Positions 21,852 through 39,500 of a DNA stretch of 41,813 bases are shown piece after piece; position 1 is the stretch's first letter, and every line of letters starts with the position of its first letter. The position numbers and the translations under genes were made by a program. Under the pieces are notes generated by a model that saw nothing but the letters and a program-made list of their open reading frames with translations, had not been told where the DNA came from and made no database searches. The stretch is from Streptomyces albus subsp. chlorinus (GTDB taxonomy: Bacteria; Actinomycetota; Actinomycetes; Streptomycetales; Streptomycetaceae): positions 2,281,859 through 2,323,671 of the forward strand of contig NZ_VJOK01000001.1 in NCBI RefSeq assembly GCF_013302895.1, in the 5' to 3' direction.

Positions 21852-21911
21852 CCGGCGGCCGGGCGGCGACGCCGTACGGACCGGCTGCCGGGCGGCGACG
21901 TACTGGTGCGG

Positions 21912-21991
21912 CTACCGGGAGGCGGCGCACAGGCCGACTACCGGGGGCGGCGTGCGGGCCGACTACCCGGGAGCGGCGTGCGGGCCGGCTA
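21912..21991 (-). repeat. 25-26 bp tandem repeat carrying successive TAG stop codons at the 3' end of an AraC gene
   Basis: Units 21912-21937, 21938-21962 and 21963-21988, plus the start of a fourth at 21989, each begin CTACC (or CTACCC) on the plus strand. On the minus strand the CTA at 21989-21991 is the TAG stop of the regulator gene, so TAG recurs at 26, 25 and 26 nt intervals after the real stop. Confidence 0.85.
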
Positions 21992-23014
21992 CCGGGGGGC
22001 CGTATCCGGGGCGAGCTGCGCGCGGTAGGCGCTGGGGCTCACCCCGCGCAGCCGTTTGAACGCGGTGCTCAGGGCGAAACCGTCGGCGTAGCCCACCCGG
22101 CGGGCGACGGCGCCCAGGGTCGCACCCGGCTCCCGCAGCAGCCGGGCGGCCAGGTCGATGCGCCAGCGCGCCAGATAGGCCATGGGCGGCTCACCGACCA
22201 GTTCGGTGAACCGCCGGGCGAGGGCGGCGCGGGACACCCCGGCCTTGGCCGCGAGCCCGGCCACCGTCCAGCCGTGGCCGGGCTGTTCGTGCAGCAGCCG
22301 CAGCGCCACTCCGACGACCGGGTCGCTCTGGGCCCGGTACCAGGCGGGGGCCCATGCCTCCGGGCGCGCGAACCAGGCCCGCAGCACCGACACCAGCAGC
22401 AGGTCGAGCAGCCGGTCGAGCACCATCTGCTGGCCCGGCGCGTCCTTGACGATCTCCGTGGCGACCAGCGGCAGCAGCGCCGCGTCCCACTCGCCCTCCC
22501 GCAGCACCAGCACGGGCGGCAGGACGTCCAGCAGCCGTGCGCTCAGGTCGCCGTGCAGCTGGTAGTTGCCGCTCAGCAGCACCACGGGGTCGTCCGGGTC
22601 GCGGCCCCAGGTGCGCACCCCCAGGGCCAGCTCCTCGCACATGTCCTGGCCGTCCGGTGTGGTGCAGCAGTCGCCCGGCTGGATCAGCAGTCCCGGCTCG
22701 GTCGCGGGGTCGTCGGCCAGCACGTAGGGCGCGGGCCCGCGCAGCACCACCACGTCGCCGGGCACCATCCGGACGGGCTCCGGGTCCTCGGAGTGCCGCA
22801 CCCAGCCCTCGCCGCGCATCATGCAGGCCACCGACAGCGGCGTACCGTCCTGCACCCGTACGCCCCAGGGCGGTGCGAGCACCGCGCGGTGGAAGAGCCC
22901 GCCCCGCGCCCGCGCCCCGCCCAGCACCTCGGTGAGCGCCTCGGTCAGCGCGTCCCCGCCGTCGCCGCTCGCACGGCTGACGCCGCCCTTGTTCTCCTCC
23001 CCTACGCCTGTCAC
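21989..23014 (-). CDS. AraC-family regulator with cupin-like sensor domain
   Basis: 341 residues. N-terminal cupin_6-type domain (about 20-200: GGLFHRAVLAPPWGVRVQDG, VPGDVVVLRGPAPYVLADD, with a CCTTPDGQDMC cysteine pair), C-terminal AraC HTH (about 240-330: GWTVAGLAAKAGVSRAALAR and ATLGAVARRVGYADGFALST). Such proteins usually repress or activate an adjacent oxidoreductase; here the divergent NmrA-like gene starts 81 nt away. GTG at 23014 (codon CAC on the plus strand). The 3' end runs into a tandem-repeat block holding extra TAG codons. Confidence 0.9.
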   Translation of the reverse strand: MTGVGEENKGGVSRASGDGGDALTEALTEVLGGARARGGLFHRAVLAPPWGVRVQDGTPLSVACMMRGEGWVRHSEDPEPVRMVPGDVVVLRGPAPYVLADDPATEPGLLIQPGDCCTTPDGQDMCEELALGVRTWGRDPDDPVVLLSGNYQLHGDLSARLLDVLPPVLVLREGEWDAALLPLVATEIVKDAPGQQMVLDRLLDLLLVSVLRAWFARPEAWAPAWYRAQSDPVVGVALRLLHEQPGHGWTVAGLAAKAGVSRAALARRFTELVGEPPMAYLARWRIDLAARLLREPGATLGAVARRVGYADGFALSTAFKRLRGVSPSAYRAQLAPDTAPR

Positions 23015-23094
23015 GGCAGCAGCGTAGACGCTGGGACATGGAGGTGAGCCGATAGACGATGTTCCCGCTCGCGTTCAGGGCGTTGGCTGGAGCC

Positions 23095-24087
23095 ATGACA
23101 CACACCAGTCAGCGGACCGCGGAGAACACCGCCGAACAGAGCACCACCGCACACAGCGCCACCACACACGAAACTGCCGCACTGAGCAGCACCGCACACA
23201 GCACCACCGCACAGAGCAGCAGCGCACACAGCACCGCCGCGCGGGGGGCCGGCGCGCCGCAGCCCTCTAACGCCCCTGTCCTCGTCCTGTGCGGCACCGG
23301 CAAGAACGGCAGGAGGGTCGCCGCGCGGCTGCGCGAGAAGGGCCACCCGGTGCGGGTGGGGACGCGGTCGGGGACGCCGCCCTTCGACTGGGAGTCCCCC
23401 GGCACCTGGGACGGGGCGCTGGACGGGGTGGGCGCCGTCTTCGTCGTCTGCCAGCCCGACGTGGGGGCACCGGGGACCGCCGAGGCGGTGCGTGCCTTCT
23501 CCCGGCGCGCCGCCGAGAAGGGGGTGCGGCGCCTGGTGCTGCTGTCGGCGCGCGGTGAGGACGCTGCCGAGGCCACGGAGCGGGCGGTGCGGGAGGCGGG
23601 CACCGAATGGACCATCCTGCGCACCAGCTGGTTCTTCCAGAATTTCAGCGAAGGCGTCTTCCTGCCGCAGGTCCTGGAGGGCGAACTCCCCTTCCCCGCC
23701 GGGGACGTGCGCGAGCCGTTCATCGACGCGGGGGACATCGCCGAGGTCGCCGCCGCCGCGCTCACCGAGGACGGGCACCACGGCCGCGTCCACGACCTGA
23801 CGGGCCCGCGCCTGCTCACCTTCGGTGAGGCGGTGGCCGAGGTGGCGGCGGCGAGCGGGCGCCAGGTGCGCTACCTGCCGCTCGGCCCCGAGGAGTACGG
23901 CGCATGGCTGGCCGGCCAGGGTCTGCCCGCGGATCTGGTGGCGTTCCTGGGCGGACTGTTCGGGCAGCTGCTGGACGGGCGCAACGCGGCGGTCTCGGAC
24001 GGCGTACGCGAGGTGCTGGGCCGTCCGCCGCGGGACTTCACCGACTTCGCGCGGGAGGCGGCGGCCGAGGGCGCCTGGAACGGCTGA
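23095..24087 (+). CDS. NAD(P)-binding NmrA-like / atypical SDR with low-complexity N-terminal extension
   Basis: 330 residues. From residue about 60 it is a normal NmrA/SDR-a5 Rossmann protein: APVLVLCGTGKNGRRVAARL (GxxGxxG nucleotide site), RRLVLLSARGEDAAEATERA, TEWTILRTSWFFQNFSEGV, LTGPRLLTFGEAVAEVAAAS. Residues 1 to about 58 are an odd Thr/Ser/His/Ala stretch (for example QSTTAHSATTHETAALSSTA) encoded by short repeats of AGCACCGC/ACACAGC type. No alternative start exists between that stretch and the Rossmann fold. ATG at 23095 with GGAG just upstream. Divergent from the AraC regulator. The stop region is tandemly duplicated. Confidence 0.88.
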   Translation: MTHTSQRTAENTAEQSTTAHSATTHETAALSSTAHSTTAQSSSAHSTAARGAGAPQPSNAPVLVLCGTGKNGRRVAARLREKGHPVRVGTRSGTPPFDWESPGTWDGALDGVGAVFVVCQPDVGAPGTAEAVRAFSRRAAEKGVRRLVLLSARGEDAAEATERAVREAGTEWTILRTSWFFQNFSEGVFLPQVLEGELPFPAGDVREPFIDAGDIAEVAAAALTEDGHHGRVHDLTGPRLLTFGEAVAEVAAASGRQVRYLPLGPEEYGAWLAGQGLPADLVAFLGGLFGQLLDGRNAAVSDGVREVLGRPPRDFTDFAREAAAEGAWNG

Positions 24088-24124
24088 CTCGCACGGTCGC
24101 GCCTGGAACGGCTGACCCGCACGG
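24071..24124 (+). repeat. 26-nt direct repeat spanning the stop of the NmrA-like gene
   Basis: 24071-24096 and 24099-24124 are identical except for one base (GACTCG versus GACCCG); period 28. The first copy codes the end ...GAWNG plus the TGA; the second lies in the 3' untranslated region and repeats that TGA. Confidence 0.9.
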
Positions 24125-24158
24125 GCGGAATCGGCGGCGCTCCGCGCGGGTCGCCCGG

Positions 24159-24186
24159 TTGCGTCATGTGGCGTGCGGGGCACGAT
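24159..24186 (+). promoter_or_regulatory. leaderless promoter of the cupin gene
   Basis: -35 TTGCGT (24159-24164), 16-nt spacer, -10 CACGAT (24181-24186), then 6 nt to the ATG at 24193; no Shine-Dalgarno. Confidence 0.45.
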
Positions 24187-24192
24187 GGACGT

Positions 24193-24516
24193 ATGGATGA
24201 TGTGAGCGCACTGGCAGCCGAGCACCTGGCGCTGGCGAGGAAGGACCCGCACGGCCGCAGCGCGTACCTCTTCCTGCACGACGGGCCACTGCGGCAGTCG
24301 GTCATCGCGCTGACCGAGGGCTCGTCCCTGGAGGAGCACAACACGCCCCCCGCGGCCAGCGTCCACGTCCTCCAGGGCAGCATCCGGCTGACGGAGGGCA
24401 CCGCCGACCAGGACGTCGGGGCGGGGCAGATCCAGCGCGTCCCGCACCTGCGGCACGGTGTTCTGGCCCTGGAGGACGCGGTCTTCATCCTCACCGCGGT
24501 GACCGGCACCGAATAG
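24193..24516 (+). CDS. small cupin-domain protein
   Basis: 107 residues, a single cupin beta-barrel. N-terminal helix MDDVSALAAEHLALARKDPH, then VIALTEGSSLEEHNTPPAAS and VHVLQGSIRLTEG (cupin motif 1), and QRVPHLRHGVLALEDAVFIL (motif 2, few metal ligands). Small cupins of this kind may bind metals or small metabolites; no reaction can be assigned. The ATG at 24193 is preferred over the upstream ATG at 24166 because of the leaderless promoter and the family start. Converges on aroQ; the spacer has a hairpin. The stop region shows a 16-nt tandem duplication. Confidence 0.82.
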   Translation: MDDVSALAAEHLALARKDPHGRSAYLFLHDGPLRQSVIALTEGSSLEEHNTPPAASVHVLQGSIRLTEGTADQDVGAGQIQRVPHLRHGVLALEDAVFILTAVTGTE

Positions 24517-24539
24517 CGCCGCCACCGGACAGCGCCACC
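24508..24539 (+). repeat. 16-nt tandem repeat spanning the stop of the cupin gene
   Basis: ACCGAATAGCGCCGCC (24508-24523, with the TAG stop) and ACCGGACAGCGCCACC (24524-24539) agree at 13 of 16 positions. The TAG is CAG in the second copy. Confidence 0.6.
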
Positions 24540-24550
24540 GTCCCGCGGGG

Positions 24551-24580
24551 CCCGCGGACCCCTCCGCCCGGCTCCGCGGG
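24551..24580. terminator. hairpin between cupin and aroQ genes
   Basis: CCCGCGGA (24551-24558), 14-nt loop, TCCGCGGG (24573-24580). It lies between two convergent stops and can serve both directions; no T run. Confidence 0.5.
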
Positions 24581-25087
24581 TCACTCCGGCTGCGGCTTGA
24601 GCGCGCCCCACTCGGCGATCCGGTGCAGCACCGAGCGCAGCGCCAGCTCGTATCCGAAGACGCCGTGTCCGGAGACCATGCCCTGGCACACGGGGGCCGT
24701 CACGGAGGTGTGCCGGAAGGGCTCGCGGGCGTGCACGTTGGAGATGTGCACCTCTACGCACGGGATGCCGAGTCCCGCCACGGCCTCCAGCGCGTCGCGC
24801 AGCGCGTAGCTGTAGTGCGCGTAGGCGCCCGGGTTGAAGACGATGCCGTCGTCGCTGCCGCGTGTGGCGTGGATCAGGTCGACGAGCGTGCCCTCGCTGT
24901 TGCTCTGCGCGCACCGTACCCGGGCTCCCAGCTCCGCGCCGAGAGCCGTGGTGCGCTCCTCGACGTCCTTGAGCGTGGTGCTGCCGTAGGTGTCACGGTC
25001 GCGCTCTCCCAGCAGGTTGAGATTGGGGCCGTGCAGGAGCAGCACGCGCGGGGCCGGGGAGGCGGCTGAGGGAGAAGTCGCGTTCAT
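24581..25087 (-). CDS. aroQ: 3-dehydroquinate dehydratase, type II
   Basis: 168 residues. Third step of the shikimate pathway: 3-dehydroquinate to 3-dehydroshikimate; cytosolic dodecamer. Family hallmarks: LHGPNLNLLGERDRDTYGS (catalytic Tyr in a flexible lid, and Arg before it), QSNSEGTLVDLIHA, NPGAYAHYSYALRDAL (catalytic His), EVHISNVHAREPFRHTSVTA and QGMVSGHGVFGYELAL. The ATG at 25087 gives an N-terminal tail of about 12 residues before the fold starts (RVLLLHGPN). Not clustered with other aro genes here, so its role in this setting (biosynthetic or quinate use) is open. Confidence 0.95.
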   Translation of the reverse strand: MNATSPSAASPAPRVLLLHGPNLNLLGERDRDTYGSTTLKDVEERTTALGAELGARVRCAQSNSEGTLVDLIHATRGSDDGIVFNPGAYAHYSYALRDALEAVAGLGIPCVEVHISNVHAREPFRHTSVTAPVCQGMVSGHGVFGYELALRSVLHRIAEWGALKPQPE

Positions 25088-25225
25088 GGGGGCAGCCTAG
25101 ATCCCTCGACCACGAGCGTTGTCCACAGCGGGCGGCGGAGGCGTGCGCAAGGCCGGCGAGGCCGGGGTGCCCGACTCGCGGGGCTCGGTACCCGATGGGG
25201 GAAGTGCGGTACTCGGCATGGGGAG

Positions 25226-25834
25226 TTACGCGCGGTGGGGTGGCAGGCCGAGCAGGGGAAGCCACACCTCGTCCACGATCTCGACGATCGATTCGTCGGG
25301 TACCGGCCCCATGTTCATCAGCATGTCGTGACGCACCAGGTCGAGGGGCAGGTTCACCAGGCGTGCGGTGCGTGGCGCATCGGGGAGTTCGCCTCGCTCG
25401 ACCGCACGGGCGACGATCTGTCCGAAACCGGGTACCTGCCCGGCGGGGAGGAGGCGGTCGCGGAGCTCGTTGAAGCTGGTGCCCGTCTCGCGGAAGTAGT
25501 CGGCCAGCTGGATGCGCATGAGTATCACCGTGCGACCGCGCTCGGCGTTGACCGCGCGCAGGAGCGTCAGCGCGTCCTGGCGCAGGCTGCCGGTGTCGGG
25601 GAGGTCGAGCGGGCGCCAGTGGTGGGCGAGTGTGGCGAGGAGCAGGTCCTCACGCCGGGGCCAGCGCCGGTAGAGGACGGGTTTGCTGGTTGCGGCCCGC
25701 GCTGCGACGGCCTCGTAGGTGAAGCCGTTGTAGCCCTGCTCGACCAGTACGTCCCAGGCGGCTCGCAAGATGGCGTTCCGCAGGGCGGCCCCCCTGCGGC
25801 GGGTGGCGGTTCCCCCTGCGTCCTGCCCACTCAT
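25226..25834 (-). CDS. TetR/AcrR-family transcriptional regulator
   Basis: 202 residues. N-terminal TetR HTH (about 15-62): LRNAILRAAWDVLVEQGYNG and FTYEAVAARAATSKPVLYRR, followed by a C-terminal effector domain of the TetR_C kind (QLADYFRETGTSFNELRDRL). ATG at 25834. Divergent from the MDR oxidoreductase at 26070; the shared spacer carries two perfect palindromes, so it most likely represses both itself and that gene. The DNA after its stop (25130-25225) has weak GTACCG-type repeats. Ligand unknown. Confidence 0.92.
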   Translation of the reverse strand: MSGQDAGGTATRRRGAALRNAILRAAWDVLVEQGYNGFTYEAVAARAATSKPVLYRRWPRREDLLLATLAHHWRPLDLPDTGSLRQDALTLLRAVNAERGRTVILMRIQLADYFRETGTSFNELRDRLLPAGQVPGFGQIVARAVERGELPDAPRTARLVNLPLDLVRHDMLMNMGPVPDESIVEIVDEVWLPLLGLPPHRA

Positions 25835-25880
25835 AGGTGCCCCCTTCGCCTCGGTCCGGCGCTTCCACTCTACCCGGTTG

Positions 25881-25896
25881 GAAACGCTTGCGTTTC
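25881..25896. promoter_or_regulatory. palindrome GAAACGC-TT-GCGTTTC, probable regulator site
   Basis: Perfect 7-bp arms with a TT centre, 47 nt upstream of the TetR start. Could be the autoregulatory operator or a LacI-like site. Confidence 0.65.
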
Positions 25897-25927
25897 TTAA
25901 TTGCGCGCCGTACTCTCGGGATCATTG

Positions 25928-25943
25928 GATACGGAGTCGTATC
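25928..25943. promoter_or_regulatory. palindrome GATACG-GAGT-CGTATC, probable TetR operator
   Basis: Perfect 6-bp arms with a 4-bp centre between the divergent TetR and MDR genes; this size and form is typical of TetR operators. The promoter hexamers for the + gene are unclear. Confidence 0.7.
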
Positions 25944-26069
25944 TTAGGAGTGCGGCCGAGGCGGACGCGGTCACCACGTGCCGGGCCGGCTCCTCCACGG
26001 CGCCCGCGCCCTGCCCAAGCCGGGGAGAGACGCCGGCACCTCATCCGGGCCGCAGAGAAAGGAGACCCC

Positions 26070-27029
26070 ATGTCCGTGATCAAGGCCGCGCTCGTGGAGT
26101 CCTTCGACCAGCCACCGCGCTTCCGCTCCCTCCCCTCGCCCGAGGCCGGGCCCGGCCAGGAAGTGGTGGACGTCCTCGCGGTCGGCGTGCACCCCGCCAC
26201 CCGCGGCATCGCCGCCGGCAAGCACTACACCAGCCCCAAAACCCTGCCCGCACCGGCCGGCGCCGACGCCGTCGTGCGCCGGCCGGACGGCCGCCTCGCC
26301 TACGTCATGGTGATGGGCGCCGGCACCCTGGCCGAGCGCATCGTCATCGACCCGGCCGCCGCGATCCCGGTGCCCGACGGGGCGGACGCCGCAATCCTGG
26401 CCGCCACCATGAACCCGGCCCTGTCCTCATGGATCGCGTTGCGCACCCGCGTACCGTTCCAGGCCGGTCAGTCGGTCCTGGTGCACGGCGCGACCGGCAA
26501 CGCCGGATCGATGGCCGTCAAGGTCGCCCGGCACCTCGGCGCCGGCCGGGTGGTCGCCGCCGGACGCAACCGCAGCCGCCTGGACGTCCTCGAGGCCGGG
26601 GGCGCCGACGCCGTCGTCCAGCTCACCCCCGACGAGGACGCCACCGCGACCGCGCTCGCCGAGGCCGCCGCAGAGGTCGACGTGGTACTGGACTACGTAT
26701 GGGGCCCGCCCACCGAACTCGCCATGCGCGCCGTCCTCGGCGCCCGCACCCGGCACACCCGCCTCCTGGACTGGGTGCAGATCGGCGGCATGGGCGGTGA
26801 CGCCGTCACCCTGTCCGGGCACGCCCTGCGCTCCAACGCCTTCCGCGTGCTGGGCAGCGGGTTCGGCTCCGTCGCCACGGACGTCATGCGGCGGGAGTTC
26901 ACCGATCTCGTCGCCGCGATCGCCCAAGGCGCCATGGCCGTGCGCCCGCGGCCGTTCCCGCTCGCCGACGTCGAGAAGGCATGGGCCCATGAGGACGCGC
27001 CGGGCGAGCGCACCGTCATCCTCCTGTGA
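26070..27029 (+). CDS. MDR-family quinone oxidoreductase-like protein (zinc-type alcohol dehydrogenase superfamily)
   Basis: 319 residues. Medium-chain dehydrogenase/reductase of the quinone-oxidoreductase type: N-terminal GroES-like domain about 1-130, NADPH Rossmann domain about 130-265 with VLVHGATGNAGSMAVKVARH (nucleotide-binding AxxGxxG) and VVAAGRNRSRLDVLEAGGAD. No structural-zinc cysteines are seen, fitting the zinc-free group. The ATG follows AAAGGAGA at 7 nt. It reduces an unknown carbonyl or quinone; expected to be controlled by the divergent TetR. The last 20 nt are tandemly repeated after the stop. Confidence 0.88.
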   Translation: MSVIKAALVESFDQPPRFRSLPSPEAGPGQEVVDVLAVGVHPATRGIAAGKHYTSPKTLPAPAGADAVVRRPDGRLAYVMVMGAGTLAERIVIDPAAAIPVPDGADAAILAATMNPALSSWIALRTRVPFQAGQSVLVHGATGNAGSMAVKVARHLGAGRVVAAGRNRSRLDVLEAGGADAVVQLTPDEDATATALAEAAAEVDVVLDYVWGPPTELAMRAVLGARTRHTRLLDWVQIGGMGGDAVTLSGHALRSNAFRVLGSGFGSVATDVMRREFTDLVAAIAQGAMAVRPRPFPLADVEKAWAHEDAPGERTVILL

Positions 27030-27051
27030 GAACCGCCGTCCTCCCGTGAGA
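27012..27051 (+). repeat. 20-nt tandem repeat spanning the stop of the MDR gene
   Basis: ACCGTCATCCTCCTGTGAGA (27012-27031) and ACCGCCGTCCTCCCGTGAGA (27032-27051) agree at 17 of 20 positions. Both carry TGA; the first is the stop. Confidence 0.8.
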
Positions 27052-27386
27052 CAGGCCCCGGACCCCCGTATCCCGCCCTGGGCGTCAGGGGCAACCCGCT
27101 CACGCGCGCCTGCGCCACCACCGAGGCACCCCTCACCGATCACCCACCGCAGTGGACGGGCAGCCGCCCGTCAGGGACCCCGCGGGCCGCTGCACCTGGT
27201 TCCCGCCACGGGGAAGCACCGGGGGGGCGTCGGCCTCGACCGTCCGCGCAGGTGCCGCTAGCCTCCGGTGCGGGGGCCCGTCGCGGGCCGTCCCGGCCGT
27301 CGCGGGCCGCCGGAAGGGCGCGCCGTGACCGCCCGGGCCGCCACGGGCCGCCGAAGGCGCCGGACGAGGCGAGGAGCAGGCGAGCT
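27052..27386 (+). promoter_or_regulatory. spacer and putative promoter of the SDR/response-regulator operon
   Basis: No gene. A promoter is likely at -35 TCGACC (27236-27241), 17-nt spacer, -10 TAGCCT (27259-27264), leaving a leader of about 115 nt. That leader has a two-copy repeat of CCGTCGCGGGCCG (27279 and 27298, 19-nt period). GAGGAG (27371-27376) is the Shine-Dalgarno for the SDR. Confidence 0.5.
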
Positions 27387-28307
27387 ATGGGCTGGACAGC
27401 GCGGAACATCCCCGACCAGAGCGGCCGTACGGCGGTCGTGACCGGCGCCAACAGCGGCATCGGCTTCGTGACGGCCAGGGAGCTGGCGCGGCGCGGCGCG
27501 CGGGTCGTCCTGGCGTGCCGCAGCGAGGAGCGCGGGCAGCGGGCCCGGGACGAGCTGGTGCGGGAGCTGCCCGAGGCCAAACCGCGCACCGAGCTGCGCC
27601 GGCTCGACCTCGGCGACCTGTCCTCGGTGCGCGCCTTCGCCAAGGAGCTGCCCGACGACCGGGTGGACCTGCTGGTCAACAACGCGGGGGTGATGGCGCT
27701 GCCGTACGGCAGGACCGCGGACGGTTTCGAGACCCAGTTCGGCGTCAACCACCTGGGGCACTTCGCCCTCACCGGGCTGCTCCTGGACAGGCTGCTGGCC
27801 GCCCGGGAGCCGCGGGTGGTGACCGTCTCCAGCCAGCTCCACGCGCTGGCCAACATCGACCTCACCGACCTCAACAGCGCGCGCTCCTACCGCCGCTGGC
27901 TCGCCTACGCGCGCTCCAAGACCGCCAATCTCCTCTTCACCCACGAGCTGGCGCGCCGGACGGCCGGCACCCCGCTGGTCGCGGCCGCCGCGCACCCCGG
28001 CTACGCGTCCACCAATCTCCTCACGGCCAGGTCCCGCATGGAGGGCAGGAAGGTCCTGGAGCGGGTCATCGAGCTGGGCAACCGGACCGTCGCGCAGTCG
28101 GCCGAGGCGGGTGCGCTGCCGACGCTGTACGCGGCGACGGAGCCCGGGGTGGGCGCCGACTCCTTCACGGGGCCGCGGTTCCTGTCCTGGCGCGGCGGGC
28201 CCGCCCCGTCGTGGCGGGCGCCCTGGACCCTCAGCGACGAGGCCGCCGCACGGCTGTGGGCGGCCTCCGAGCGGCTGACGGGGGTCGGCTACGGGACGCC
28301 CGCGTGA
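27387..28307 (+). CDS. short-chain dehydrogenase/reductase
   Basis: 306 residues, in the retinol-dehydrogenase-like branch of classical SDRs. NAD(P) motif TAVVTGANSGIGFVTARELA (TGxxxGIG, about 15-30), Asp at the end of strand 3, NNAGVMALPYG (NNAG), the catalytic Ser in VVTVSSQLHAL, and the YxxxK active site in WLAYARSKTANLL. ATG at 27387. The gene overlaps the response regulator gene by 4 nt (GTGA), so the two proteins are made together. Substrate unknown; oxidoreduction of a lipophilic alcohol is a family-level guess. Confidence 0.9.
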   Translation: MGWTARNIPDQSGRTAVVTGANSGIGFVTARELARRGARVVLACRSEERGQRARDELVRELPEAKPRTELRRLDLGDLSSVRAFAKELPDDRVDLLVNNAGVMALPYGRTADGFETQFGVNHLGHFALTGLLLDRLLAAREPRVVTVSSQLHALANIDLTDLNSARSYRRWLAYARSKTANLLFTHELARRTAGTPLVAAAAHPGYASTNLLTARSRMEGRKVLERVIELGNRTVAQSAEAGALPTLYAATEPGVGADSFTGPRFLSWRGGPAPSWRAPWTLSDEAAARLWAASERLTGVGYGTPA

Positions 28308-29402: not shown

Positions 29403-32150
<2,748 letters not shown>

Positions 32151-32240
32151 CGCACTCGGCTCCTCGTGGTCGGTTGCCCTGACGGCGGGGAGCGTACCCA
32201 GATCAAAGGCGTACGAGTACGTCCAGCGGCATGTCACACG

Positions 32241-32290
32241 GCCGTAACCACCCGTCTGCCGAGAGATCGAAAGTGCACCGTGGTTACGGC
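32241..32290. repeat. 11-bp inverted repeat GCCGTAACCAC / GTGGTTACGGC with 28-nt spacer
   Basis: Left arm 32241-32251, right arm 32280-32290, perfect. Located 91-140 nt upstream of the ppdK start. Either two sites of one regulator 39 bp apart or a long hairpin. Confidence 0.8.
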
Positions 32291-32442
32291 TGATTGGCCG
32301 TGCCATTCAGAAGCCGAACGCATGATGACGCTGAGACACGCCGGTCACCCACTTGCGCACGCTGAGCGAACCGCGCCTACGACAACGGAACCAAGGGCCG
32401 GTAAAACCGGCACCTGCTCCTTGGAGAGATACACCCCTCATT

Positions 32443-32460
32443 TGAGCGCTCATATGAGCG
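32443..32460. promoter_or_regulatory. overlapping palindromes TGAGCGCTCA and CGCTCATATGAGCG
   Basis: TGAGCGCTCA (32443-32452) and CGCTCATATGAGCG (32447-32460) are perfect palindromes that share CGCTCA. Another TGAGCG half-site is at 32363. Looks like a cooperative operator; the regulator is not evident. Confidence 0.65.
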
Positions 32461-32538
32461 TCACCCTTATCAAGGTGGCGCGAATCACGCCTCCATTCGC
32501 GTGACCGTCTCACCATGCGGACAGCGTTCGGGCCGCAG

Positions 32539-32544
32539 TAGATT
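32539..32544 (+). promoter_or_regulatory. -10 of a leaderless promoter for the GGCT-like gene
   Basis: TAGATT, then 6 nt, then the GTG at 32551; no Shine-Dalgarno. A weak TGCGGA (32516-32521) fits as -35 with 17-nt spacing. Confidence 0.45.
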
Positions 32545-32550
32545 GCGCGC

Positions 32551-33141: not shown

Positions 33142-34277
33142 CCTCCCGAGGTGTCCAGTTCGGCGTCGGCGCTGATGCCCGCGGAGCACTCGTACGGGTC
33201 CTCCAGCCAGCCGTCGGGCAGGACGACCTTGTTGCGGGAGTGGGTACGGCCGCGGGGGCCGTCGGCGCCGGGGGGCCACTCCTGGGACAGGTCCAGCTCG
33301 TCCAGCAGTGCGCGCAGTTCGGCCAGGGAGCCGGCGACGGCCAGCCTCTTGCGCATCTCGGAGCCCACCGAGAAGCCCTTGGTGTACCAGGCGACGTGCT
33401 TGCGGAAGTCGATGACGCCGCGCGCCTCGTCACCGAGCCACTCCCCCAGCAGCCGCGCGTGCCGCACCATCACGTCGGCGACCTCGCGCAGGGTGGGCCG
33501 GGCGTAGGCGCCGGAGCCCTCGCCCGAGAGCGCGGCCACCAGATCGGCGAACAGCCAGGGCCGCCCCAGGCAGCCGCGGCCCACCACGACGCCGTCGCAG
33601 CCGGTCTCGCGCATCATGCGCACCGCGTCGTCGGCCGACCAGATGTCGCCGTTGCCCAGCACCGGGATCTCGGGGACGGCCTCCTTGAGGCGTGCGATGG
33701 CCTCCCAGTCGGCGGTGCCGCCGTAGTGCTGCGCGGCGGTGCGGCCGTGCAGGGCGATGGCGGTGACGCCCTCCTCGACGGCGATGCGCCCGGCGTCCAG
33801 ATACGTCAGGTGGTCGTCGTCGATGCCCTTGCGCATCTTCATCGTCACCGGGAGGCCGCCCGCGTTGCTGACGGCCTCGTGCAGGATGGCGCGCAGCAGC
33901 GGCCGCTTGTAGGGCAGTGCGGAGCCGCCGCCCTTGCGGGTCACCTTGGGGACGGGGCAGCCGAAGTTGAGGTCGATGTGGTCGGCCAGGTCCTCGTCCG
34001 CGATCATCCGCGCGGCCTTGCCGACGGTCACCGGGTCCACGCCGTACAGCTGGATGGAGCGCGGCTTCTCGCTCGCGTCGAAGTGGACGAGCTGCATCGT
34101 CTTCTCGTTGCGCTCTACCAGCGCCCGGGTGGTGATCATCTCGCTGACGAACAGTCCGCGGCCCCCGGAGAACTCCCTGCACAGGGTCCGGAACGGAGCG
34201 TTGGTGATCCCAGCCATCGGTGCCAGCACGACGGGCGGGTCGACGACGTGCGGTCCGATGTGCAGCGGCTGGGTCAT
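33138..34277 (-). CDS. dusB: tRNA dihydrouridine synthase (DusB family)
   Basis: 379 residues. FMN enzyme that reduces uridines in the tRNA D-loop. TIM barrel with VVLAPMAGITNAPFRTLCRE (N-terminal FMN motif), HIDLNFGCPVPKVTRKGGGS with the catalytic Cys, VTMKMRKGIDDDH, IALHGRTAAQHYGG, and IPVLGNGDIWSADDA (FMN phosphate). The C-terminal RNA-binding helices are from about 270. ATG at 34277 chosen (AAGGA upstream, conserved start MTQPLHIGPHVVD); a longer reading to 34334 lacks family support. The XRE gene lies 82 nt upstream on the same strand. The 3' end shares CTAA with the GGCT-like gene. Confidence 0.94.
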   Translation of the reverse strand: MTQPLHIGPHVVDPPVVLAPMAGITNAPFRTLCREFSGGRGLFVSEMITTRALVERNEKTMQLVHFDASEKPRSIQLYGVDPVTVGKAARMIADEDLADHIDLNFGCPVPKVTRKGGGSALPYKRPLLRAILHEAVSNAGGLPVTMKMRKGIDDDHLTYLDAGRIAVEEGVTAIALHGRTAAQHYGGTADWEAIARLKEAVPEIPVLGNGDIWSADDAVRMMRETGCDGVVVGRGCLGRPWLFADLVAALSGEGSGAYARPTLREVADVMVRHARLLGEWLGDEARGVIDFRKHVAWYTKGFSVGSEMRKRLAVAGSLAELRALLDELDLSQEWPPGADGPRGRTHSRNKVVLPDGWLEDPYECSAGISADAELDTSGG

Positions 34278-34359
34278 ACGGCGGCGTCCTTCTGTGCTCT
34301 CGGCGGGCGGGGACAACATCCCATTGTCACCCATCCGGCCCGTGCCCCCTCCCCGCGGG

Positions 34360-35301
34360 CTACGCGCCCTCGGTGACCAGCCGGTGCAGCCGCTCCACCC
34401 GCTCCCGCGTCTGCTCGTCCCGCGGTACGTACACCCCCATGCGGGCGCCCTCGGCCGGGCTCAGCCACAGCCCGTGGTAGGTGAAGGACAGCATCCCCAC
34501 CAGGGGGTTGAGGAACCGCTTGCCCTTGTCCACCGCGCGGGCCACCTCGTGCCGCTGCCACAGCTCGCGGAACTCCGGCGAGGTCTGCTCCAGGCGTGCG
34601 AGCAGGGCCTTCCACGCGGGCTCCGCCAAGTGCTCGGCCATCCGGGAGCGGAAGCGGGCGACCATCAGCCGGATGGTCTCCTGGTGGTCGGGCATGGCCG
34701 TCCTCCACCCGGTGTCGGTGAAGGCCAGCCACATGCAGTTGCGGTCCTCGGCGGGCACCGCGTCCAGATCGCCGAGCAGGCGGCCATAGGTGCGGTTGTG
34801 GGCGAGGATGTCGTACCGCGCGTTCTGCACACAGGCCGGGAACGGCTCCAGCTGGGTGAGCATCTGGCGGACGCCGGGCGGCAGCGCCGTCGTCTCGGCC
34901 GCGGGCGTCGGGTCGGCGACGCCCGCGAGCGCGAACAGGTGCGCCCGCTCGCTGGCGTCCAGCATCAGCGCCCGGGAGAGGGAGTCCAGCACCTGGGCCG
35001 ACACCTGGATGTCGCGGGCCTGCTCCAGCCACGTGTACCAGGTGACGCCGACCGCCGACAGGTGCGCCACCTCCTCGCGGCGCAGCCCCGGCGTCCGGCG
35101 GCGCGGGCCGCGCGGGAGCCCGACCTGCTCGGGGGTGATCCGCTCCCGCCTGCTGCGCAGGAACGCGGCCAGTTCCTCGCGGCGCTCGCTGTCGGCGGCC
35201 CAGGCGGCGCCGGGCGCGGGCTCGGGCGTCGGCTCAGGTGCCCGCTTGTGCCGCGGCGGAGCGGCGGCCTCCGGTGACGGTGAGGGGTCGGTGACGGTCA
35301 T
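34360..35301 (-). CDS. XRE-family regulator with MmyB-like ligand-binding domain
   Basis: 313 residues. After an N-terminal Pro/Glu-rich segment (1 to about 37), an XRE HTH (about 43-105: ELAAFLRSRRERITPEQVGL, RRTPGLRREEVAHLSAVGVT and WYTWLEQARDIQVSAQVLDS) and the MmyB-like domain (about 130-300: CVQNARYDILAHNRTYGRLL, RNCMWLAFTDTGWR), which in the family binds fatty-acid-like ligands. ATG at 35301. Divergent from the MFS exporter with CTGGTACCAG-type palindromes between, so it most likely represses exporter and itself; a streptomycete MmyB-exporter module. Confidence 0.92.
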   Translation of the reverse strand: MTVTDPSPSPEAAAPPRHKRAPEPTPEPAPGAAWAADSERREELAAFLRSRRERITPEQVGLPRGPRRRTPGLRREEVAHLSAVGVTWYTWLEQARDIQVSAQVLDSLSRALMLDASERAHLFALAGVADPTPAAETTALPPGVRQMLTQLEPFPACVQNARYDILAHNRTYGRLLGDLDAVPAEDRNCMWLAFTDTGWRTAMPDHQETIRLMVARFRSRMAEHLAEPAWKALLARLEQTSPEFRELWQRHEVARAVDKGKRFLNPLVGMLSFTYHGLWLSPAEGARMGVYVPRDEQTRERVERLHRLVTEGA

Positions 35302-35302
35302 G

Positions 35303-35375
35303 CCACCAGGATGGAGCACCGCTCATTCTGGTGCCAGGTAGTCGTCATACCAGGATGAGGAGCGTCTGGTACCAG
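35303..35375. promoter_or_regulatory. CTGGTRCCAG operators between the XRE and MFS genes
   Basis: CTGGTGCCAG (35328-35337, one mismatch from a palindrome) and CTGGTACCAG (35366-35375, perfect), 38 bp centre to centre. ACCAGG half-sites also occur at 35305 and 35349, so four related sites fill the 100-bp spacer. Confidence 0.8.
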
Positions 35376-35402
35376 GCTGGCAGGTCGCTGAGGCTCGTAG
35401 CC

Positions 35403-36872
35403 ATGAGTCACGATGTCGCCACCACCCGGCCGGGTGCGGCCTCCTCCCCCGGTACCGGGTCCACGCGGCCGCCCTCTCCCGCGGCCGGTACGGAGCTGCG
35501 CCCGCTCGGCCTGTTCACGCTGCTGCTGGGCGCCGCCCTGCCCATGATCGATTTCTTCGTCGTCAACGTCGCGTTCCCGGGCATCGAGAGCGACCTCGAC
35601 GCCTCCCCCGCCGCCCTGGAGATGGTCGTCGCCAGCTACGCCGTCGCCTACGCCGCCCTGCTCGTCCCCGGCGGACGGCTCGGCGACACCTACGGACGGC
35701 GCAAGCTCTTCCTGTGGGGCGTCGCCGCCTTCGGCCTCACCTCGCTCGCCTGCGGCTCCGCACCCGGCGTGTGGTGGCTGGTCGGCGCCCGGCTCGCCCA
35801 GGGCGCCGCCTCCGCACTGCTGTTCCCGCAGGTCCTCGCCACGATCCACGCCACCACCCAGGGGCGCTCCCGGGCCCGCGCCATCGGCCTGTTCGGCTCG
35901 GTCGGCGGCATCTCCATGGTCACCGGCCAGGTACTCGGCGGGGTACTGGTCGCCGCCGACCTGGCGGGCACCGGATGGCGGATGATCTTCCTGATCAACG
36001 TGCCCGTCGTCGTGGTCGCCCTGGCACTCGGACTGCGCACCGTCCCCGACAGCCGTTCGGCCTCCCCCGCACGCGGAGACGTGGCCGGAGCGGTGCTGCT
36101 GGCCTGCGGGCTCACCGCCCTGCTGCTCCCGCTGACGGAGGGCCGCGCGGCGGGCTGGCCCTGGTGGTCGCTGCTCCTGCTGGCCGCCGCGTGCGTACTG
36201 GCCTGGGCCTTCCTCACCGTCGAACGCCGCGAGGAACGGGCCGGCCGCAGTCCGCTGCTGCCGCCCTCACTGCTGCGGGAGCCGGGCGTACGGCGCGGAC
36301 TGCTGGCCGGGGCGCCGATCTTCCTGGGCTTCAGCAGCTTCATGTTCGAGAGCGCGCTGGTGTGGCAACACGGATTGCGTTTCGGCGCGTTGACGGCGGG
36401 CCTCACGCTGGTCCCCATGGGCCTGGCACAGTTCGCCGCCTCCATGTCCGCGCCCCGGGTGACCGAACGCCTCGGCACCGGACGCGTACTGGCGCTCAGC
36501 GCCGTGGTGCAGACAGCCGGACTGGGAACCCTGCTGCTGGCCCTGCTCGCGGCGTGGCCCGGCCTGTCACCGCTCGCCCTCGCCCCGGGCCTGCTGCTGT
36601 GCGGACTGGGACAGGGGCTCCAACTGCCCACCTACTACCGCGTCCTGCTCTCCGGCGTCCCCGCCGCCCGGGCCAGTGCCGGCAGCGGCCTGGCCGCCAC
36701 CGCCCAGCAGTCCGGTCTCGCCCTGGGCGTGGCCACCCTCGGCTCCCTCTTCCTCGCCCTGACCCCGCACCTGGGCATGCGGGAAGCCTTCGCCGCCGTC
36801 CTGGCCGTCCAGGCGTGCGGCCTGCTGCTGCTCGCCGTCATCGGCCTGCGGATGCCGCGCCCCGCGGACTGA
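35403..36872 (+). CDS. MFS exporter, DHA2 family (EmrB/QacA-like, 14 TM)
   Basis: 489 residues with 14 predicted hydrophobic segments. Motif A GGRLGDTYGRRKLF after TM2, motif C-like GQVLGG in TM5 (VGGISMVTGQVLGGVLVAAD), and Asp at TM1 (LLLGAALPMIDFFVVNVAFP), all as in DHA2 drug/proton antiporters. Exports small toxic compounds; substrate unknown, not obviously linked to a biosynthetic cluster. ATG at 35403. Probably repressed by the divergent MmyB-type regulator. Its last 306 nt (36567-36872) are overlapped in antisense by the reading frame of the ATP-binding protein gene. Confidence 0.93.
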   Translation: MSHDVATTRPGAASSPGTGSTRPPSPAAGTELRPLGLFTLLLGAALPMIDFFVVNVAFPGIESDLDASPAALEMVVASYAVAYAALLVPGGRLGDTYGRRKLFLWGVAAFGLTSLACGSAPGVWWLVGARLAQGAASALLFPQVLATIHATTQGRSRARAIGLFGSVGGISMVTGQVLGGVLVAADLAGTGWRMIFLINVPVVVVALALGLRTVPDSRSASPARGDVAGAVLLACGLTALLLPLTEGRAAGWPWWSLLLLAAACVLAWAFLTVERREERAGRSPLLPPSLLREPGVRRGLLAGAPIFLGFSSFMFESALVWQHGLRFGALTAGLTLVPMGLAQFAASMSAPRVTERLGTGRVLALSAVVQTAGLGTLLLALLAAWPGLSPLALAPGLLLCGLGQGLQLPTYYRVLLSGVPAARASAGSGLAATAQQSGLALGVATLGSLFLALTPHLGMREAFAAVLAVQACGLLLLAVIGLRMPRPAD

Positions 36873-37301
36873 GGACGCGGACCCTTCCTCCTGGTTGCCG
36901 GCGGCCCCGCTCACCGCGAGATGGACCCACACCGTCTTGCCCGGCCCCGAGCGGGGCCGCACCCCCCACGCCTGCGCGAGCGCGTCGACGAGCAGTAATC
37001 CCCGGCCGGACGTCTCCTCGGGCCCGGGCTTCCGGAGTTCCGGCATCCGCCACTCGAAGGAGTCGGACACCTCCAGCACGAGGACGCCCGCGCGGCGGCG
37101 CAGTGCCAGCTCGAAGTAGTCCCCGATCCCCCGCGCGGCGTGGGCGACCACATTGGTCGCCAACTCACTGGTGACGAGCGCCGCCTCCTCCGCGAGGTGC
37201 CCGAGCTTCCACTCTCTGAGCACCTGCTCCACATGCCTCCGCGCTCTCGGCACGGACGCCGCACGGATACGGAACCTCACGACTGCTGTTCGCCCGGTCA
37301 T
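36567..37301 (-). CDS. ATP-binding (HATPase_c_2, anti-sigma-like) regulatory protein with unusual C-terminal extension
   Basis: 244 residues. Residues 1 to about 133 form the usual GHKL/HATPase_c_2 domain of small Streptomyces regulators (N box ALVTSELATNVVAHAARGIG; G1 box region VSDSFEWRMPE; G2 SGRGLLLVDALAQAWGVRP; end KTVWVHLAV). Such proteins are normally about 140 residues. Here no stop follows: translation runs about 110 more codons as Gln/Gly/Glu-rich sequence entirely or mostly antisense to the MFS gene. ATG at 37301. Partner of the WhiJ-like XRE and DUF397 genes, which lie divergent. The long form may be real or a lost stop (mutation or frameshift). Confidence 0.78.
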   Translation of the reverse strand: MTGRTAVVRFRIRAASVPRARRHVEQVLREWKLGHLAEEAALVTSELATNVVAHAARGIGDYFELALRRRAGVLVLEVSDSFEWRMPELRKPGPEETSGRGLLLVDALAQAWGVRPRSGPGKTVWVHLAVSGAAGNQEEGSASSVRGARHPQADDGEQQQAARLDGQDGGEGFPHAQVRGQGEEEGAEGGHAQGETGLLGGGGQAAAGTGPGGGDAGEQDAVVGGQLEPLSQSAQQQARGEGER

Positions 37302-37399
37302 TGGGCCTCCGGGGGCGGCTCGATGGAATGGGACTCACTTTGCGTGCCGTACCGCACGCGCTGCGTGACGGATCTCACGCTACGGCGCAATGTCGGTTC

Positions 37400-37431
37400 T
37401 TGGCAAGTGAGCGAATTGGCAAGCTTGCCAG
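37400..37431. promoter_or_regulatory. palindrome TGGCAAGCTTGCCA plus a TTGGCAAG half-site
   Basis: TTGGCAAG at 37400-37407 and 37416-37423 (direct, 16-nt period), and CTTGCCAG (37424-37431) makes a perfect 14-bp palindrome (37417-37430) with the second. It sits between the divergent ATPase-protein and XRE genes, 78 nt upstream of the XRE ATG, the probable WhiJ-like operator. Confidence 0.75.
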
Positions 37432-37508
37432 TCACACTGAGTCTCAAACTCCTGTCCCAGTCGGCCGGTTGCCGTGCAGACTTGGGAAAGCACAGATGGG
37501 GAGGACAC

Positions 37509-38384
37509 ATGCCCTCGGACCGGAAGCCCACCATGCGCGGCAGGCGGCTCGGCTCCGCCCTGCGGCAGTACAGGCTGGCCGCGAAACTCGACCAGGAGCA
37601 CGCGGCCGAGGCGCTGGGCTGCTCGACGGCGAAGATAAGCCGCATCGAGTCCGGGGCGAACTGCGCCCGCGTCGCGGAAGTCCGCTACCTGCTGGACCTC
37701 TACGAGGTGAAAGACAGGACGACCCGGTCCCAGCTCGAACGACTGGCCCGCAGCGCGACCAAGCGCGGCTGGTGGGTCAACCAGCCCGTGCCTGTCCCGG
37801 ACAAGCTGGGTGACTACCTCGCGCTGGAATCCGACGTCACGTTCATCCGCACCTGGCAGACGGCGCTGGTACCAGGGCTGTTGCAGACGGCGGAGTACAC
37901 CAGAGCGCTGACCACCGCGAATCCCGCGATCGAGGACGAGGCGGAAGTGGACCTCGTGGTGTCGGTGCGCCAGGAACGGCGCAAACAGTTCCTGGCTTCC
38001 GGCGCCCGGCTGGCCGCCGTGATCTGGGAACCCGCCCTCACTTCGTCCATGTCCAGCCCCAAGACCCACCGGGCCCAACTACTCGACCTGCTGTGGCTCC
38101 AGCAGCAGCCGTTGATCACCTTGCAGGTGCTGCCCCTGAACGAATGGGCGGCGGCAACGAACGCGCCACCGTTTGTCATGCTGTCCTACGACGGGGAGTG
38201 GGCACCCTCCGCGGTCGTCCAGGACACGCACCAGGAGAGCGTCGTCCTGGAGGACGACCACCTCACAGCTCTCTACGGACACACCTTCGACACCCTGCGG
38301 TCCGCCGCACTGACACCTGAACAATCCCGCGACTTCATCCAGAAGCTCATCACCACCATCCCCCAGGAAGGCGAACCCACGTGA
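37509..38384 (+). CDS. WhiJ-like XRE regulator with DUF5753 domain
   Basis: 291 residues. N-terminal XRE HTH about 10-70 (RRLGSALRQYRLAAKLDQEH, AAEALGCSTAKISRIESGAN), then the DUF5753 domain about 100-280 (IRTWQTALVPGLLQTAEYTR, VVSVRQERRKQFL, WLQQQPLITLQVLPLNEW, FVMLSYDGEWAPSAVVQD). Members of this group, such as WhiJ, pair with small DUF397 proteins and HATPase proteins and influence development in Streptomyces. ATG with GGGAGGA 5-11 nt upstream. Overlaps the DUF397 gene by 4 nt (GTGA). Confidence 0.92.
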   Translation: MPSDRKPTMRGRRLGSALRQYRLAAKLDQEHAAEALGCSTAKISRIESGANCARVAEVRYLLDLYEVKDRTTRSQLERLARSATKRGWWVNQPVPVPDKLGDYLALESDVTFIRTWQTALVPGLLQTAEYTRALTTANPAIEDEAEVDLVVSVRQERRKQFLASGARLAAVIWEPALTSSMSSPKTHRAQLLDLLWLQQQPLITLQVLPLNEWAAATNAPPFVMLSYDGEWAPSAVVQDTHQESVVLEDDHLTALYGHTFDTLRSAALTPEQSRDFIQKLITTIPQEGEPT

Positions 38385-38587
38385 ACAGCAAGAGCATCGT
38401 CAGCCCCTTCTCCAAGTCGTCGTACTCCGGCGGGGGTACGGCCAATGAATGTGTGGAGGTGGCCCACACCTCGGACGGAGGGCGGGCCGTCCGTGACAGC
38501 AAGGAGCCCGGGCGCGGGGTGGCGCACTTCGCGCCGGGGGCGTGGCGGGCGTTCCTCACCCACCTGAACCGGACGCAGGCCCTGTAA
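38381..38587 (+). CDS. DUF397 (BldB/AbaA-like) small protein
   Basis: 68 residues. Typical DUF397 pattern: FSKSSYSGGGTANECVEVAH, then AVRDSKEP and HFAPGAWRAFLTHL. DUF397 proteins act with XRE-DUF5753 regulators, apparently by binding them. GTG start overlaps the regulator's TGA. With the divergent HATPase gene this makes the known three-part developmental module. The stop region is repeated once: CCCTGTAACCGCACC (38580-38594) and CCCCGTAACCACTCC (38595-38609) agree at 12 of 15, each with TAA. Confidence 0.9.
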   Translation: MNSKSIVSPFSKSSYSGGGTANECVEVAHTSDGGRAVRDSKEPGRGVAHFAPGAWRAFLTHLNRTQAL

Positions 38588-38609
38588 CCGCACCCCCCGT
38601 AACCACTCC
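38580..38609 (+). repeat. 15-nt tandem repeat spanning the DUF397 stop codon
   Basis: Two 15-nt copies, 12 of 15 identical, both holding TAA. C-rich sequence makes chance similarity more likely than in the other cases. Confidence 0.45.
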
Positions 38610-38617
38610 CCCAGCAG

Positions 38618-38631
38618 ACCGACCGGTCGGT
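38618..38631. promoter_or_regulatory. perfect palindrome ACCGACCGGTCGGT, possible TetR operator
   Basis: 14-bp perfect palindrome of the ACCGACCGGTCGGT type seen in TetR-family operators; no TetR gene is next to it. The downstream membrane protein gene starts at 38778. Confidence 0.55.
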
Positions 38632-38691
38632 TCCTCTCGCACACATCCCCCACGTCCCGCACGTGCCGCACGTGCCCGCAGAGGAACAACA

Positions 38692-38729
38692 CCAACTCGC
38701 CCCCCTACCCCGGTAGGGGGGCGAGTTGG
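38692..38729 (+). terminator. very strong hairpin upstream of the membrane protein gene
   Basis: Left arm 38692-38709, loop CC, right arm 38712-38729: an 18-bp perfect stem. No T run on the plus strand (GCTCC follows), so it may be the terminator of the DUF397 operon or a site for the next promoter. Just upstream are two CCGCACGTG repeats (38657-38676). Confidence 0.7.
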
Positions 38730-38764
38730 CTCCGTGGTGTGACGTGCGGCGGGCCGTCGCTCCC

Positions 38765-38770
38765 TAGCGT
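38765..38770 (+). promoter_or_regulatory. -10 of a leaderless promoter for the membrane protein gene
   Basis: TAGCGT, 7 nt, ATG 38778; the same arrangement as at 20546. TGACGT (38740-38745) is a possible but distant -35. Confidence 0.45.
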
Positions 38771-38777
38771 TCCGGGC

Positions 38778-39398
38778 ATGAGCCTTCCGCACGGTACCCG
38801 CACCTCCGCCCCCACGACGTCCCCCTCCCCCTCCCCCTCGCCCTCGCCCTCACCGGCGGGCCGACGGTCCGCGTTCGCGCCGGCCTTCTGGCGGCGGCAG
38901 GGGCGGCGCGTCGGCACGGGGCTCGTCCTGCTGCCCCTGGGGGTGTACGCGGGTGCCGCCGCGCTCGTCGGACGGACCGGGGCGGCCCGCCGGGCGCTGC
39001 GCGCGGAAGCCGGCCCGCAGAGCCCGTCCGCGGGACCTGTGCGCGTGGTGGCGCACTCCGCGATGACGGCGCTCCTGGGGGTGCTGGCCGTGCTGCCGGC
39101 CGGGCTGCTCGTGCTGTTCGTCGCCCGCGGCGTGCTGTACGGGTTCGTGGACGACGGCCCCTATGACACCTCGTGGGGCGGCCCCACCAGGGCGGGTGCC
39201 TGGCTCGCGCACTTCGCGGTGAGCGTGCCGTTCGCCGCCGCCGCGCTGGCGCTGCTGGCCGGTCTGGCCGGGCTCCAGCGTCGGGCGACCGCGCCGCTGC
39301 GCGGGGAGCGCCGGCCCGGATGGGTGCTGCCGGTGATGCTGCTGGGCTGCGTGGCGGGCGCGCTGTTCACGGTCGCGTTCGTGCACCAGCTGAACTGA
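38778..39398 (+). CDS. small integral membrane protein of unknown function
   Basis: 206 residues. An N-terminal Ser/Pro repeat TSPSPSPSPSPSPAGRR (about 13-30, encoded by CCCTCC/CCCTCG hexamers) is followed by four hydrophobic segments: LVLLPLGVYAGAAALVG, MTALLGVLAVLPAGLLVLFV, VSVPFAAAALALLAGLAGL and VLPVMLLGCVAGALFTVAFV. No catalytic motif and no family I recognise. The loop GFVDDGPYDTSWGGPTRAG between TM2 and TM3 is distinctive and probably outside the membrane. The ATG has no Shine-Dalgarno; promoter TAGCGT-N7-ATG. Confidence 0.75.
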   Translation: MSLPHGTRTSAPTTSPSPSPSPSPSPAGRRSAFAPAFWRRQGRRVGTGLVLLPLGVYAGAAALVGRTGAARRALRAEAGPQSPSAGPVRVVAHSAMTALLGVLAVLPAGLLVLFVARGVLYGFVDDGPYDTSWGGPTRAGAWLAHFAVSVPFAAAALALLAGLAGLQRRATAPLRGERRPGWVLPVMLLGCVAGALFTVAFVHQLN

Positions 39399-39455
39399 GC
39401 CGTGCCGTCAGACGCCTGACGGCGGGCGCCCCGCCACCAAGCGCCCTTCCGCAAG

Positions 39456-39500
39456 GCACCGTGCCGTCAAAGCGGTGCCGTCGGGAGCGGTGCCGTCAGG
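39456..39500 (-). repeat. 15-nt tandem repeat spanning the stop of the OYE-like gene
   Basis: AGCGGTGCCGTCAGG (39486-39500), AGCGGTGCCGTCGGG (39471-39485) and a decayed GCACCGTGCCGTCAA (39456-39470). On the minus strand the first holds the TGA stop (39496-39498); the second has CGA there and the third TGA. Confidence 0.8.

Follow-up and report, generated by a model that had tools for sequence, protein, structure and literature searches.

Tandem Repeats Spanning Stop Codons in a Streptomyces albus Genome: Probable Slippage Duplications Tolerated at Gene Ends

Stop-Spanning Repeats at the Locus

The window, by which we mean the whole stretch of 41,813 nucleotides analyzed here, comes from Streptomyces albus subsp. 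chlorinus (C1:2281859-2323671 of a 7.61-Mb draft genome in four contigs) and holds several genes that end in tandem copies of their own terminal sequence. We consider it very probable that these stop-spanning repeats are short tandem duplications, made by slippage, that are common between genes and are tolerated at gene ends. A first-pass annotation had named six such genes. Tandem Repeats Finder (TRF), which returned 36 rows for the window, placed arrays over the stops of the AraC, NmrA-like, cupin, DUF397, and OYE-like genes; the MDR repeat was missing from the TRF list at score 40. The genes and repeats concerned are as follows.

21989-23014, minus strand: AraC-family gene, stop TAG at 21989-21991 (Pfam HTH_18/HTH_AraC and Cupin_6)
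21912-21998, minus strand: AraC 3'-end array, TRF score 121, period 26 (units of 25-26 nt), spanning the TAG stop
21791-21855, strand not applicable: second array in the gap 3' of AraC, 17-nt unit, 3.8 copies, TRF score 102; the AraC stop is not included
23095-24087, plus strand: NmrA-like gene, stop TGA at 24085-24087 (Pfam NAD_binding_10/NmrA)
24071-24124, plus strand: NmrA-like 3'-end array, TRF score 101, two copies with period 28, over the TGA stop
24503-24536, plus strand: weak 16-nt repeat at the 3' end of the cupin-like gene, over the TAG stop at 24514-24516, TRF score 47
26070-27029, plus strand: MDR (zinc-type dehydrogenase) gene, stop TGA at 27027-27029 (Pfam ADH_zinc_N)
27012-27051, plus strand: MDR 3' repeat, two 20-nt copies with three mismatches, TGA twice
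38580-38612, plus strand: weak 15-nt repeat at the 3' end of the DUF397 gene (Pfam DUF397), over the TAA stop at 38585-38587, TRF score 45
39496-40596, minus strand: OYE-like gene, stop TGA at 39496-39498 (Pfam Oxidored_FMN)
39461-39507, minus strand: OYE-like 3' array, 15-nt units, TRF score 73, over the TGA stop

Pfam confirmed the named gene families except for the cupin-like gene, whose Cupin_2 match lay under the cut-off. Each repeat was compared with 2000 shuffles, in which codons were shuffled upstream and dinucleotides downstream. None of the shuffles was as good as the real sequence for AraC, NmrA, MDR, or OYE, and for these four genes the tandem copies described in the first-pass annotation stand; the cupin and DUF397 repeats are weak, with 6 and 2 of 2000 shuffles as good, respectively. 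The unit lengths given for the four stronger repeats were also borne out. The AraC array carries TAG four times, at 0, +26, +51, and +77, the third of them in frame, and the NmrA-like array matches over 26 nt at a period of 28 with one mismatch, its second TGA being out of frame. The accompanying claim that each unit contains the stop codon does not hold throughout, as CGA replaces TGA in the second OYE copy and the second cupin copy has CAG instead of TAG; in DUF397 a second TAA is present and in frame. None of the six repeats is perfect, and their units are GC-rich. A 301-nt query with the AraC array, the only array queried, matched only itself, apart from a 55-nt match to its coding part. 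Plasmids searched with the AraC-NmrA region yielded relatives of AraC.

Two further arrays lie close to these. The 17-nt and 26-nt arrays in the gap 3' of AraC (21790-21998) adjoin and together occupy about 200 bp. The other, at 23127-23240, repeats a 15-nt unit in 7.6 copies where the NmrA-like gene encodes its N terminus, and provides a coding counterpart whose period is a multiple of three.

Stops and Starts in Arrays at Genome Scale

Two pieces of the chromosome that carries the window, 1.6 Mb and 0.4 Mb long and with 50.5 kb masked, made up the genome-scale sample, in which our own script called 1428 genes. This gene finder covers 71% of unmasked bases, misses genes, and would split a gene at a frame-breaking array (one with a period not divisible by three); its gene ends agree with those of the first-pass annotation inside the window. 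Strict arrays, defined as two or more copies of period 12-60 that are at least 90% identical, numbered 679 in 2.0 Mb and included 27 of the 1428 stops and 7 of the 1428 starts. By TRF (score at least 40), the corresponding numbers were 98 and 22. Among 1420 stops with complete flanks, 28 lay in a strict array, as compared to 0.15 on average, and never more than 2, in 40 shuffles, and TRF placed 94 of 1420 in an array, as compared to 1 to 7 in ten shuffles. The excess of stop-spanning arrays over chance is real and large. Gene ends of this kind are common in the genome, a repeat score of at least 10 (that of MDR is 11) being reached at 108 of the 1421 scored in 2.0 Mb.

Arrays include a relatively large share of the window's stops, one that lies within the range of the genome. 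TRF (score at least 40) gave 5 of its 35 genes, a number reached or exceeded in 39 of the 273 overlapping windows of 35 genes; the strict rule placed 3 of its 35 stops in arrays. The window's four frame-breaking arrays in 41.8 kb equal the genome average. For contrast, none of 91 annotated stops lay in a TRF array in 100 kb of E. coli K-12, a sample too small for a rate.

Frame Rule and Microhomology

Periods were divisible by three in all 287 arrays lying wholly in predicted genes, a result due partly to the construction of the gene finder. Arrays crossing a gene boundary comprised 12 with periods divisible by three and 23 without, and the 27 stop-containing arrays comprised 7 and 20. This lack of a frame rule in stop-containing arrays is as expected if a duplication that includes the stop leaves the protein unchanged. 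Over all gaps, 187 intergenic arrays had periods divisible by three and 170 did not. The latter share (170 of 357) is lower than in convergent gaps (37 of 46 arrays) and same-strand gaps (41 of 70), probably because missed genes were counted as gaps. The same counts bear on whether the repeats stem from sequencing or assembly errors, for which we found no support; the genome is a four-contig draft. Such errors would fall everywhere, but none of the 287 in-gene arrays breaks the frame (which the gene finder favors), and other species carry such arrays too, making an artefact barely conceivable.

Of 76 noncoding duplications that were perfect and frame-breaking, ten had three or more copies and were set aside. 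In the other 66, the match at unit ends extended by a mean of 4.06 nt, as compared to 0.90 nt by chance. This excess points to slippage between short direct repeats, supporting the replication slippage put forward in the first-pass annotation, and slippage is the likely maker of the arrays. Ordinary replication slippage, or slipped-strand tandem duplication, is marked by short units, microhomology at unit ends, and variable copy numbers, and we found nothing here that differs from it.

Slippage between short direct repeats during replication would yield short tandem duplications. Where a duplication started in a gene and ended past the stop, the original gene end including the stop would stay first, and the extra copy would fall in the 3' flank; its length would not need to be a multiple of three, and the protein would be unchanged. 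Stop-containing duplicates would survive because of this unchanged protein. Starts are hit less often, and the predicted reason is that there the promoter and ribosome-binding region would be disturbed. That neutrality is the reason for survival we infer from the missing frame rule and from the lack of extra stop conservation and extra RNA structure described below.

Position of Arrays Relative to the Stop

Frame-breaking arrays had zero coverage deep in genes and covered 0.9% of the final 20 nt. Over the 20 nt that begin with the stop, coverage was 2.7-3.6%, and in convergent gaps it climbed to 11% at 120-159 nt after the stop. Overall, arrays covered 26% of the 31832 bp of convergent gaps, 10% of same-strand gaps, and 5% of divergent gaps, and the 180 genes that overlap the next gene had no frame-breaking array at their ends. 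The 5' edges of arrays were counted in 12-nt bins at the 672 stops with at least 150 nt downstream. There were 4, 0, and 2 edges in the bins from -48 to -13, followed from -12 onward by 11 (-12 to -1), 14, 21, 16, 16, 10, 8, 12, and 11. Edges are roughly even from -12 to +47, rare deeper in genes, and slightly less frequent beyond +47. When the two gap types were separated, the bins from -12 to +47 held the small numbers 3, 8, 10, 8, and 4 (convergent) and 9, 4, 8, 7, and 11 (same-strand). Where the stop lies in the first copy was compatible with a uniform distribution (Kolmogorov-Smirnov p 0.21, 23 arrays); the other four of the 27 arrays were dropped because the first period does not contain the entire stop. 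The arrays do not target stops; the stop is the shoulder of an array-bearing 3' flank and has no peak of its own. Deep in predicted genes there are no frame-breaking arrays, and their onset at the stop is free of a peak, which supports tolerance outside reading frames.

Stops were compared with intergenic DNA where the downstream gap was 40-400 nt and unmasked, which retained 812 of the 1428 stops; a further 357 had gaps under 40 nt (one of these stops lay in an array), and the rest were dropped. Arrays included 2.7% of convergent and 3.2% of same-strand stops, as compared to 9.5% and 4.0% of intergenic trinucleotides. With stop-like intergenic trinucleotides as the reference, at 8.6% (38 of 441) in convergent and 2.0% (32 of 1595) in same-strand gaps, the answer was mixed. 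A neutral expectation was obtained under the rule that a protein-preserving duplication must hold the stop in its first copy, with the rate taken from intergenic arrays. It predicted 9.2 convergent stops with arrays, and 9 were observed. The refuting condition set in the first-pass annotation, no excess of stop-overlapping repeats over controls, gave a divided answer: the excess is large over shuffled sequence and nil over intergenic DNA in convergent gaps.

A duplication process specific to gene ends, such as repair or replication-transcription conflict at transcript ends, would fit the greater number of stops than starts in arrays (27 vs 7), the array-richness of convergent gaps, and the same-strand counts given below. 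A process active at gene ends had also been suggested in the first-pass annotation. However, there is no peak at the stop, coverage of convergent gaps is still rising at 120-159 nt, and convergent stops carry arrays as often as expected from intergenic arrays. The ranking of convergent over same-strand over divergent gaps is predicted by relaxed selection away from promoters as well, and we regard such a process as unlikely.

Several observations weigh against our preferred reading of untargeted slippage duplications tolerated at gene ends. In same-strand gaps, coverage tops at 4% at 20-59 nt after the stop and then drops to 1-3% or less; there, 3.2% of stops lie in arrays vs 2.0% of stop-like trinucleotides, and 15 stops with arrays were observed vs 5.8 expected from the arrays of those gaps. 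This same-strand excess could arise because the promoter of the next gene lowers the intergenic reference, a reading we adopt because the convergent density scaled to the 474 same-strand stops gives about 13 arrays. By TRF, each bin from -12 to +47 held 23-35 array edges and each bin from +48 to +95 held 16-19, and arrays may have a mild preference for the 3' flank, or the first 50 nt after genes. Two of the 27 stop arrays reach at least one period into the gene. The way the gene finder works accounts in part for the absence of frame-breaking arrays from gene interiors, and its starts are less certain than its stops. The case for slippage is drawn from sequence, and the comparisons are between species.

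Second Stops and RNA Folding

The role as back-up stops proposed in the first-pass annotation would imply that stop-region duplications were selected to catch ribosomes reading through the first stop. The AraC array, with its third TAG in frame, fits this idea, and array genes have a shorter distance to their next in-frame stop than other genes, with a median of 42 vs 66 codons and a stop within 15 codons in 24% vs 13% (95 and 1297 genes). In-frame duplications alone would give such a difference without selection. On the other hand, periods were multiples of three in 7 of 27 stop arrays, and 6 of 26 second stops were in frame; neither share exceeds the one third to be expected if there were no selection. 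The duplicated stop was identical in 22 of 26 second copies (0.846), as compared to 428 of 509 other trinucleotides (0.841). Among the six listed genes, only OYE and DUF397 have a period that is a multiple of three, and the second stop of OYE is lost. We consider selection for back-up stops very unlikely.

A role in mRNA end structure, also raised at first, would have the arrays form RNA structures that end or stabilize transcripts, in keeping with their placement in 3' flanks. Yet folding at the 27 array ends was no stronger than at 120 other, randomly drawn ends (mean z -0.14 vs -0.63, p 0.15), the AraC array is absent from the 12 relatives compared, and relative G088 shares none of the stop arrays (below). 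We consider RNA structure very unlikely as well. The frame, stop-conservation, and folding tests gave no sign of selection for the repeats.

Given these results, repeats over stop codons need no function, which should serve as a warning in their interpretation. A stop-containing duplication is silent for the protein at any length, and gene ends would thereby record duplications that genes cannot keep. Counting stop-spanning duplications would thus offer a reading of the duplication process that is free of the frame filter.

Turnover Among Relatives

The closest relatives by AraC protein in the named genome collection were Streptomyces species. The AraC gene was present in all 12 relatives compared, two of which (L104 and L137) resemble each other and are possibly a single species; the array seen here was present in none of them, and the stop was TGA in all 12 vs TAG in our gene. 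Other arrays, of period 12-20, lay near or after the AraC stop in 5 of the 12. Three of five NmrA orthologues had arrays of other period or sequence, three of eight rows having been dropped with frames that did not end near the end of the query. At four other gene ends, arrays were found in one of 12 relatives for cupin, in two of 10 for dehydroquinase, and for the remaining two in none of 12 and none of 11. The OYE array was missing in G088, the sole relative compared at the OYE 3' end.

Across 400 kb of G088, 201 orthologous stops included none with an array in both genomes, three with an array only in ours, and one with an array only in G088. In 102 strictly orthologous gaps, arrays were present in 21 of ours and 12 of those of G088. 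From one relative to the next, a given gene end carries different arrays, and their turnover is fast and independent. Speaking against fast turnover, five of the 102 gaps had an array, be it the same or another, in both genomes.

Mean lengths of orthologous gaps in our genome and G088, which rest on a minority of gaps, were 127 vs 85 nt for convergent gaps (29 pairs, ours longer in 16), 174 vs 137 nt for same-strand gaps (98 pairs, ours longer in 41), and 296 vs 307 nt for divergent gaps (30 pairs, ours longer in 12).

Array Density of the Genome

Frame-breaking arrays numbered 193 in 1.949 Mb of our genome (9.9 per 100 kb), as compared to 6 in 400 kb of G088 (1.5 per 100 kb). Ten named relatives had 10 in 200.7 kb and other loci of the genus 14 in 334 kb, together 4.5 per 100 kb; a few loci of the sets overlap in species. 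Arrays covered 26% of convergent gaps in our genome, 3.1% in G088, 4.5% in the ten relatives, 18.5% in the other genus loci, and 5.2% in other actinobacteria. Our genome lies at the high end of array density, which need not reflect a raised duplication rate. The spread of 9.9, 4.5, and 1.5 would make differences in slippage rate testable.

A tentative and rather doubtful extension is that this lineage duplicates short DNA unusually fast, such that 3' flanks grow by tandem duplication and the stop is the first fixed point met. On this reading, such growth would account for the array share of about a quarter of the DNA between converging genes, several times a relative's share. A lineage-wide excess was rejected as a firm result, given the 18.5% of the other genus loci and the small contrast with G088 in orthologous gaps (21 vs 12 of 102). 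Loss of mismatch repair was likewise rejected as a cause of many arrays, as NucS (PF01939) was present in all 21 genomes searched, our own included.

Density also varied along the chromosome. At about 2.44-2.56 Mb of contig C1 (G000:C1, L030-L035), six consecutive 20-kb stretches held 3-6 frame-breaking arrays each, as compared to a mean near 2.

Known Systems

A search of titles and abstract openings revealed no stop-spanning tandem arrays in Streptomyces. The first-pass annotation knew of no described system of this kind, but repeats that start within gene ends have been described in archaeal Borg elements. In that work, about half of Borg tandem repeats are intergenic or have their first unit within gene ends, and unit lengths are divisible by three for all repeats in open reading frames and for 14-38% of intergenic ones (PMC9879509). 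The same work reports flanking partial repeats and fast independent turnover and discusses slippage; the repeats are A-rich, perfect, and extrachromosomal, and the regions analyzed were at least 50 nt, with two-copy ones outside the statistics (PMC9879509). Our arrays resemble Borg repeats in their in-gene periods divisible by three, the lack of a noncoding frame rule, the microhomology at unit ends, and the fast independent turnover. They differ in being GC-rich rather than A-rich, often of two imperfect copies rather than perfect units, and on a bacterial chromosome. The arrays thus behave like Borg repeats apart from the A-richness and perfection of the latter; relative to ordinary slippage, only the tally of arrays by gene boundary is new.

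Mycobacterial MIRU ends reportedly overlap the start and stop codons of flanking genes. In a study of mycobacterial MIRU-VNTR and ETR loci, these are tandem arrays between genes and are lineage-specific, and MIRUs are 40-100 bp repeats at 41 places of one genome (PMC2734929). The rnc-fpg1 gap measures 279-358 bp in the tuberculosis complex and at most 54 bp in the other species shown there, the array being confined to the complex (PMC2734929). Our arrays are similar as lineage-specific, intergenic tandem repeats of an actinobacterium. Unlike MIRUs, the AraC unit (the one unit queried) occurs at its own locus only and forms no dispersed family.

The MDR Neighborhood

Comparison of MDR copy numbers yielded nothing, as ten named relatives had no MDR orthologue at the locus. 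The TetR and MDR genes (window 25226-27029) had no orthologue (at least 55%) at the locus in these relatives, and the neighbors on both sides are conserved. The best MDR match in 60 other genus genomes was 56% identical. Judging by these comparisons, the TetR and MDR genes are likely a lineage-specific insertion.

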